From assembly GCA_021292105.1 (NCBI GenBank), contig CM037868.1, positions 28,168,139 through 28,232,138 on the forward strand: a stretch of DNA of 64,000 nucleotides, read 5' to 3'. The notes under the pieces are model-generated. The model was given only the letters and a program-made list of their open reading frames with translations. It did not search any database and was not told where the DNA came from. Source of the DNA: Anadara kagoshimensis (taxonomy: Eukaryota > Mollusca > Bivalvia > Arcoida > Arcidae). Positions within the stretch are counted from its first letter, which is position 1; every line of letters starts with the position of its first letter. A program made the position numbers and the translations under genes. Below are positions 7,359-10,300 of the stretch, in pieces.

Positions 7359-10300
7359 CTAAATATATAAAATATCATATGATATAAAACACATTTAAAT
7401 TATGTCACATAATGTGCCATACAGAGTAGTGTATATTATATCTTTGTCTTAATTCCTGTACATTTATACAGATCACATTACCTCCAACACCTAGATGTGA
7501 ATCTCACTCTAGCAGATACTAATGTTAGAAAGTTTGTCAGTTTGCTTTCAAAGTTTGACAGTTATCAATGTGTTCTCAAAGTTTCTTCAACCATCCTAGA
7601 ACTGACAACGTGAATATAAGTAAACAGTCTTGACAAAGGCATTAAACATCATTATCTCAACTTTACTCTTCATTCAATGGTGTTGTTAGCATGTTCTTGT
7701 AGCTCCAGCGATGGCCAGGTGTATTTTATTAGGTGGCATACAACTCAATGATAATGCTTCTCTAATGCACAATCTCAACAATTCTTGTACTTACCAATAA
7801 TCCAGATACAGTATTGTATGTGATAATCCCTGTACTTACCAATAATCAAGGTTCAGTGGTGTGTGTATATGTGGTAATCCCTGTACTTACCAATAATCCA
7901 GACACAGTGGTGTTTGTGGTAATCCCTGTACTTACCAATAATCCAGACACAGTTGTGTGTGTGGTAATCCCTGTACTTACCAATAATCCAGACACAGTGG
8001 TGTGTGTGGTAATCCCTGTACTTACCGATAATCATGACACAGTGGTGTGTGTGGTAATCCCTGTAGTTACCAATAATCCAGACACAGTGGTATGTGTGGT
8101 AATCCCTGTACTCACCAATAATCCAGACACAGTGGTGTTTGTGGTAATCTCTGTACTTATCAATAATCCAGACACAGTGGTGTGTGTGGTAATCCCTGTA
8201 CTTACCAATAATCAAGGTTCAGTGGTGTGTGTATATGTGGTAATCCCTGTACTCACCAATAATCCAGACACAGTGGTGTTTGTGGTAATCCCTGTAGTTA
8301 CCAATAATCCAGACACAGTGGTGTGTGTGGTAATCCCTGTACTTACCAATAATCCAGACACAGTGGTGTGTGTGGTAATCCCTGTACTTACCAATAATCT
8401 AGACACAGTGGTATGTGTGGTAATCCCTGTAGTTACCAATAATCCAGACACAGTGGTATGTGTGGTAATCCCTGTACTCACCAATAATCCAGACACAGTG
8501 GTGTTTGTGGTAATCTCTGTACTTATCAATAATCCAGACACAGTGGTGTGTGTGGTAATCCCTGTACTTACCAATAATCAAGGTTCAGTGGTGTGTGTAT
8601 ATGTGGTAATCCCTGTACTTACCAATAATCCAGACACAGTGGTATGTGTGGTAATCCCTGTAGTTACCAATAATCCAGACACAGTGGTGTGTGTGGTAAT
8701 CCCTGTACTTACCAATAATCCAGACACAGTGGTGTTTGTGGTAATCCCTGTACTTACCAATAATCCAGACACAGTGGTATGTGTGGTAATCCCTGTAGTT
8801 ACCAATAATCCAGACACAGTGGTGTGTGTAATAATCCCTGTACTTTCCAATAATCCAGACACAGTGGTGTGTGTGGTAATCCCCGTACTTACCAATAATC
8901 AAGACACAGCAGTGTGTGTGGTAATCCCTGTACTTACCAATAATCCAGACACAGTGGTGTGTGTGGTAATCCCTGTACTTACCAATAATCAAGACACAGC
9001 AGTGTGTGTGGTAATCCCTGTACTTACCAATAATCCAGACACAGTGGTGTGTGTAATAATCCCTGTACTTACCAATAATCCAGACACAGTGGTGTGTGTG
9101 GTAATCCCTGTACTTACCAATAATCCAGACACAGTGGTGCGTGTGGTAATCCCTGTACTTACCAATAATCCAGACACAGTGGCGTGTGTGGTAATCCTTG
9201 TACTTTATACTGGCAGTTAAAATCTAGTTTGGTACTCATATCATATATTGCTGTAATAAATATTTATGGTTTTTTAGTCCTCACTGAATCAAGCTTACAA
9301 ATAATTACTACATATGAACATTCTCTCCATGCCCTTGTATGGATTTAACAGATGCCATATATTTGAGTCTTTACAAGATGGAGGATGTAGACATTACTAT
9401 AAATAAATAAATGAGGAGGACCCAATGTTAGTACTTTTCTTGTGGTGATCTGAAATCCTCTAATTCAAAAACAATGAAAACTATCAATTATTTGCCACTT
9501 TATAGTTACACCAGAGAGACAACACCCTTCCAAAAGACAAATTGTGTGTTCTTCAATTAAGTAAGATGTTTACAGTTCAATAAAAATTTGCCATATCAGA
9601 ATATCATTTTTAGATTTGTTGAAAGTTGAAAAAGGTTGCTGATGTGATTCTTAACAACTTGACAATGAACAACCAGACAGATAATGATGCTTACCAATTT
9701 CTTTACTGGTAAATGCTAGTGCCAGTTTGTTGATTTGTTGTAAAGGTACAAAGTGTGTGACCCAAAGGTCCCGGGCCTTACAGGAATCTGTCCCAGTCCT
9801 GAATGCTCTCTGTAGTCTCAGGTCTTGTCCCCATAATGAGATACTTCCTTCCTGTAAAACATTGGAAGGATAAATATCTTAATTATATTCAACAAGGACA
9901 ACATTATATATCTTATATATTTATGTTAATAACAAATATTGCAAACATGGTACATGATTAATTCAAAGCATTTTATGTAACAAGAGCTGTTACAGGTATA
10001 AGAAAAGTTCTTATCAGCTTACCCAAGAGAAACAGACAGAAAAACAGCATTGTATCATAATATGTTCATTTTTAATTGGGGTATATAAATCATTGCTACA
10101 ATGTCACAGATAAAAATAATAAAATAAAACTGAACAACCAAAAATTTGGCTTCAAATGTTTAAAACTGAAAAATGTCACTTAAATTTTGGATAGCCTGAA
10201 AAGAGTTTAAATATGGTAACCATCCTGAAATTCATCATGAAAGCTTTGGAAGATAAAAAACTATAATTTGAGAACTTAAATGACAATAGTGATAAGTAAA

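Follow-up and report, generated by a model that had tools for sequence, protein, structure and literature searches.

The window analysed here, a stretch of 64,000 bp from Anadara kagoshimensis, carries on its minus strand a gene whose protein matches CFAP337/WDR49, with Argopecten irradians as the top match (73% identity). Altogether 84 proteins were recovered at E <= 0.001, the best of them from Tegillarca granosa (90% over 74% of the query). CFAP337/WDR49-like genes are cilia genes. Eight exons of this gene lie in the window: exon 1 (26544..26659, with the start ATG at 26659), exon 2 (18498..18576), exon 3 (13904..13999), exon 4 (11627..11781), exon 5 (10307..10376), exon 6 (9695..9851), exon 7 (9163..9250) and exon 8 (7225..7358). 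All are bounded by AG and GT and together they encode an open frame of 298 aa free of stops; over exons 4-8 the protein departs from the T. granosa model at only 2 of 201 residues, once a 17-residue insert of that model is disregarded. Exon 7, which aligns with molluscan homologues, is flanked by ttacag/CAATAT and TTATTG/gtaagtacag (the donor being read also as TTATTG/GTAAGTAC), and it joins exon 8 in frame through a Trp codon split as TG/G. A Pfam search with the 298 aa returned EF-hand_7 alone, under its cut-off, and the WD40 label of the gene is taken from longer homologues, by their names and their Pfam entries. A 233-aa query matched no solved structure, and Rfam at gathering thresholds gave no match within the window.

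Intron 7 is largely composed of a 45-bp minisatellite, designated array 1 (7786..9205, minus strand), which occupies 1377 of its 1804 nt and whose first copy starts within exon 7. The array was recovered by TRF (31.2 copies, score 2265), and five shuffles of the window by non-overlapping dinucleotides yielded 0 or 1 rows each with a top score of 62. A sequence-only reading of this DNA had described a row of about 30 copied exon-7 ends, and the row is real: wraparound alignment resolves one copy in the exon, 30 complete ones in the intron and a final partial one, giving 31 donor positions, i.e. the true one at 9163/9162 and 30 extra ones. The unit corresponds to the last 43 exonic nt of exon 7 plus GT, and the exon agrees with the consensus at 41 of these 43 nt. 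The unit length of 45 bp given in that reading applies to 27 of the 30 full intronic units, the other three being 51 bp long, and its claim that TATTG/GTAAGTA is rebuilt at every junction proved too strong. Among the 31 donors, 20 read GTAAGT (19 after TTG and 1 after TCG), 5 GTAACT, 3 GTGAGT, 2 ATAAGT and 1 GAAAGT, such that GT is retained at 28 positions and lost at 3, with the +5G missing at 5 more. A block of units also appears twice at a distance of 366 bp (rows 13-16 and 21-24), a sign in the sequence of block duplication.

A second and cleaner version of this arrangement, absent from the sequence-only reading, lies in intron 3. Array 2 (12094..13953, minus strand; detected by TRF) fills 1810 of the intron's 2122 nt with units of 50-57 bp that consist of the end of exon 3 and its donor, and the last 50 nt of the exon, which form copy 0, are identical to the unit consensus at 50/50 positions. 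The donor reads GAG/GTGAGT at 35 of 35 positions, the true one at 13904/13903 included, in a count that drops one further parsed row lying past the array end. Only 12 of the 34 full units are 53 bp long; as the remaining 22 are not, the exonic reading frame of the units is not preserved.

Array 2 has a counterpart in T. granosa. The gene prediction P0017 of that species, which is tagged LOW QUALITY PROTEIN, contains eight copies of FC[KE]A[LV]SILLDKGS[IRV]EE ahead of the exon-4 sequence, and array 2 aligns with its residues 192-459 at E = 6e-48. Among 99 other proteins searched with a loose pattern of the exon-3 repeat, 30 carry one copy, 67 carry none and 2 give a second match, which lies at residue 755 and is unrelated; a stricter pattern finds 7 copies in P0017, one in 38 proteins and none in 61. 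As judged from the P0017 model, the exon-3 array occupies the same junction in T. granosa. The T. granosa units are mostly FCKAL and all window units are FCEAL-type DNA, suggesting either that the unit sequence has turned over or that the arrays represent different lineages. At the exon 7-8 junction, the distance from the exon-7 end to the exon-8 anchor is exactly 10 residues in 31 of 31 other homologues with both anchors, the spacing predicted if exon 7 ends at 9163, as the sequence-only reading had placed it. The sole exception is P0017, in which 17 additional residues are similar to array 1 read in a different frame (a score reached by 13 of 2000 shuffles). From the Argopecten model the exon-7 sequence is missing altogether, and a protein search in which a single minus-strand frame of array 1 served as the query retrieved nothing, so that array 1 is not seen by this route in any relative. 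That reading had asked whether relatives carry the array at the same junction; the T. granosa model speaks for this at exon 3, while for exon 7 the model-based evidence is weaker. Residues 1-165 of P0017 are made up of a different translated repeat, of RLTSVDAE type, which nothing in the window matches.

Minisatellites are very dense throughout this region; 24 merged arrays span 22,665 of the 64,000 bp, or 35% of the window. One of them, array 3 in intron 8 (4168..4618, minus strand; 46 bp, 9.8 copies), has a unit homologous to that of array 1. The local alignment of the two units scores 94 against a maximum of 39 in 500 shuffles, and theirs is the top-scoring pair among all unit pairs compared. 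The last copy of array 3 continues into TTTGCAGTAAGCAT, and its interior has no GTRAG, the donor being missing. A duplicated exon 7 was considered as its source and rejected, as the flanks of array 3 are unlike those of exon 7 (492 of 1000 shuffles score as high upstream and 132 of 1000 downstream); judged by its sequence, array 3 looks like a dispersed and diverged relative of the array-1 unit. Other arrays in the window were likewise rejected as donor-spanning, for no exon of the CFAP337/WDR49-like gene lies around them. Minus-strand GTRAG motifs were counted in five arrays upstream of exon 1, at 27671-29212 (13), 31161-31613 (16), 44378-45576 (19), 48145-49612 (34) and 52819-54360 (59). The window further contains an inverted pair of dispersed repeats (3459-3642 / 11215-11395; 77% identical over 186 columns), an inverted pair in intron 1 (25420-25648 / 25823-26052; 71% identical over 231 columns), and two reading frames, at 44195-44362 (minus strand) and 32778-32975 (plus strand), which resemble a transposase of the mariner type and the reverse transcriptase of a LINE, respectively, and which Pfam did not confirm.

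The borders of arrays 1 and 2 hold possible traces of their origin. TACAAG is common to the exon copy and the partial last copy of array 1, and all 30 interior units differ there or immediately beside it (27 TACAGGG, 2 TACAGAG, 1 TACGGGG). In addition, AAGTACAAGRATT is present in exon 7 and in the terminal intron, and AAGTACAAG(G/A)ATT stands on both sides; in an ancestor with a single copy, the two would have been separated by 45 nt. Array 2 is laid out likewise, with AGTTCTGTGAGGCTTTGT on both sides. The duplication that founded each array would have arisen by slippage at a short direct repeat that coincides in part with the donor consensus. The flanking sequences fit such slippage, and a leftover partial copy would look alike.

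Since the last 43 or 50 exonic nt recur in every copy along with the donor, the competing donors are near-equal in local context and the choice among them would be set by position and not by sequence. By computed duplex energies with the U1 5' end, 22 of the 30 extra array-1 donors match or exceed the true donor in binding, and the 35 donors of array 2 are all equal; sequence alone therefore does not explain why the first donor should win. Masking of the extra donors by RNA structure was rejected as a cause, as predicted donor accessibility is nothing special, lying at the regional median for array 1 and above it for array 2. Nor is first-donor use guaranteed by known splicing factors, since SRSF1 is described as favoring intron-proximal donors and hnRNP A1 intron-distal ones (PMC5585400), and the two pull in opposite directions. 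If used, any of the extra donors, 30 in array 1 and 34 in array 2, would introduce a premature stop, encountered no later than in exon 8 and, in the case of array 1, at once after the Trp codon. The plain first-donor junction is, on sequence comparison, the one that fits the homologues, and it yields the single open frame matching them.

These observations are best accommodated by a neutral explanation, namely that both arrays grew by slippage and are tolerated as the first donor is used, which we regard as probable from the sequence evidence. The spliceosome would take the first donor, which gives the smallest exon and the sole readable frame; exon definition would occur at this donor, the remaining copies would leave with the intron, and the intronic copies would be near-neutral to selection. 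This account is favored by the identity of the unit with exon end plus donor at both exons, the decay of donors in array 1 and of exonic frames in array 2, the apparent birth scar that TACAAG leaves at array 1, and the normal splicing reported for comparable repeats in lancelets, discussed below. Constraint on donors within the units was not detectable by a comparison of cyclic windows in arrays 1 and 2. In array 1, the donor 9-mer has a mean of 1.33 variants versus 1.25 elsewhere, and equally low values occur in 27 of its 45 cyclic windows; in array 2, where the variant count includes a degenerate last row, the means are 0.22 and 1.27, and 10 of 53 windows are as low. Of the roles entertained in the sequence-only reading, a neutral expansion is accordingly the one that the sequences favor, and a decoy, buffer or enhancer of splicing gains no support from a donor 9-mer that appears not to be extra-conserved or from units that persist with ruined donors. 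Set against the neutral explanation are the near-equivalence of the donors in U1 strength, the prospect that the terminal partial copy is merely the array end and not a founding direct repeat, and the presence of arrays on two donors, which exceeds random placement in a post hoc comparison and hints at something beyond pure chance.

That last point leads to a related proposal, in which the arrays are still neutral and splice donors are preferred sites of minisatellite birth. We view this as possible, at rather low probability. Mechanistically, the constrained GTRAGT would pair with AGT-containing exon sequence 40-55 nt upstream to permit repeated slippage; as selection maintains the donor consensus, it would also keep the slippage homology and the founding copy, and exon ends would seed arrays. 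In line with this proposal, the unit boundary of each array lies within the donor hexamer, 2 of the gene's 11 arrays sit across a donor and none across an acceptor, and the donors that carry arrays are the top two of the gene's eight by U1 duplex energy (-10.8 and -10.5; others -7.3 to -10.1). When the 11 arrays were seeded at random, the probability that at least two landed on donors was P = 0.0078, and that at least two landed on any exon boundary P = 0.026; these values are post hoc, exclude dinucleotide runs as well as a 19-bp array of 2.1 copies, and treat array 3 as independent despite its kinship with array 1. GTRAG motifs within arrays are also strongly biased toward the gene's sense strand (237 versus 9 on the opposite strand), and those outside arrays are not (56 versus 63). 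Against this, the sample is one gene with n = 2, tested post hoc; five of the eight arrays behind the 237 motifs, accounting for 141 of them, are located 5' of exon 1, in sequence with no established gene, as is one more array with 2 GTRAG; and other arrays elsewhere in the gene lack a donor. The hints in favor of donor-seeded birth thus warrant a test and no stronger conclusion. The broader proposition that ark-clam donors are recurrent birth sites, whose arrays outlive species and whose first donor is picked by position from more than 30 equals, seems to us somewhat less likely again.

The remaining explanations fare worse. Use of downstream donors could generate transcripts that carry stops and, through nonsense-mediated decay, adjust the gene's output, and the early stops predicted for all 64 extra positions would suit such a role, as would the normal-sized exons of 133-268 nt that array-1 donors 2-5 would produce. 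This we consider improbable in light of the plain junction in the 31 homologues and of lancelet repeats reported without disturbed splicing. It is more doubtful still that the array serves as a selected U1 platform, whether decoy, buffer or guard against premature polyadenylation; the perfect array-2 donors and the presence of the exon-3 array in T. granosa would be expected of one, but 8 of the 31 array-1 positions are without the donor GT or +5G, 10 of the 53 array-2 windows match the donor in conservation, the relative of array 1 in intron 8 has none in its interior, and donor accessibility is ordinary. Finally, tandem arrays are difficult to assemble, but a misassembled array or repeat number is hardly credible given copies with ordered variants, among them the block recurring 366 bp apart, and an exon-3 array in the independent T. 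granosa annotation.

Several known systems share features with the clam arrays. Intron gain by tandem genomic duplication at AGGT similarly involves tandem duplication of a segment that includes a splice site; however, in the available description an exonic duplication creates a new intron (PMC3443670), whereas the clam introns stay in place and only grow. CeRep25B of Caenorhabditis elegans is likewise an intronic minisatellite linked to splicing, but the link is statistical, and an exon-derived unit with a donor per copy does not feature in the available part of that report (PMC4039745). The closest parallel is with the lancelet mirages, minisatellites across exon-intron boundaries that were named in Adh3 and the globins BflGb6 and BflGb9 (PMC3087553) and found also in TnC and PGBD5 (PMC3902484), so that the earlier claim of no described class does not hold. 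As presented in the accessible portions of these two reports, lancelet mirages vary in copy number between haplotypes or assemblies and are spliced normally (PMC3087553, PMC3902484). Like them, the clam repeats straddle an exon-intron boundary with the ends of exons 7 and 3 as copy 0, and their units mostly keep the splice signal (GT at 28/31 and 35/35 positions). Unlike them, so far as those portions extend, the clam arrays reach ~30-35 copies as opposed to 3 and 6 in BflGb6 and 2-7 in PGBD5, both sit at donors, lancelet mirages occurring at acceptors as well, and two occur in one gene together with a dispersed relative, array 3. By boundary span and retained splice signals, both read from sequence, clam arrays 1 and 2 belong with the mirages and, like them, are probably harmless. 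A literature search of limited breadth found mirages for lancelets only and none for molluscs, and with these arrays the class now extends to a mollusc. Introns 3 and 7 are in effect competition experiments supplied by nature, in which exon definition and the choice of a 5' splice site can be studied, and the clam arrays, if the hints of donor seeding hold, tie the birth of minisatellites to splice sites.
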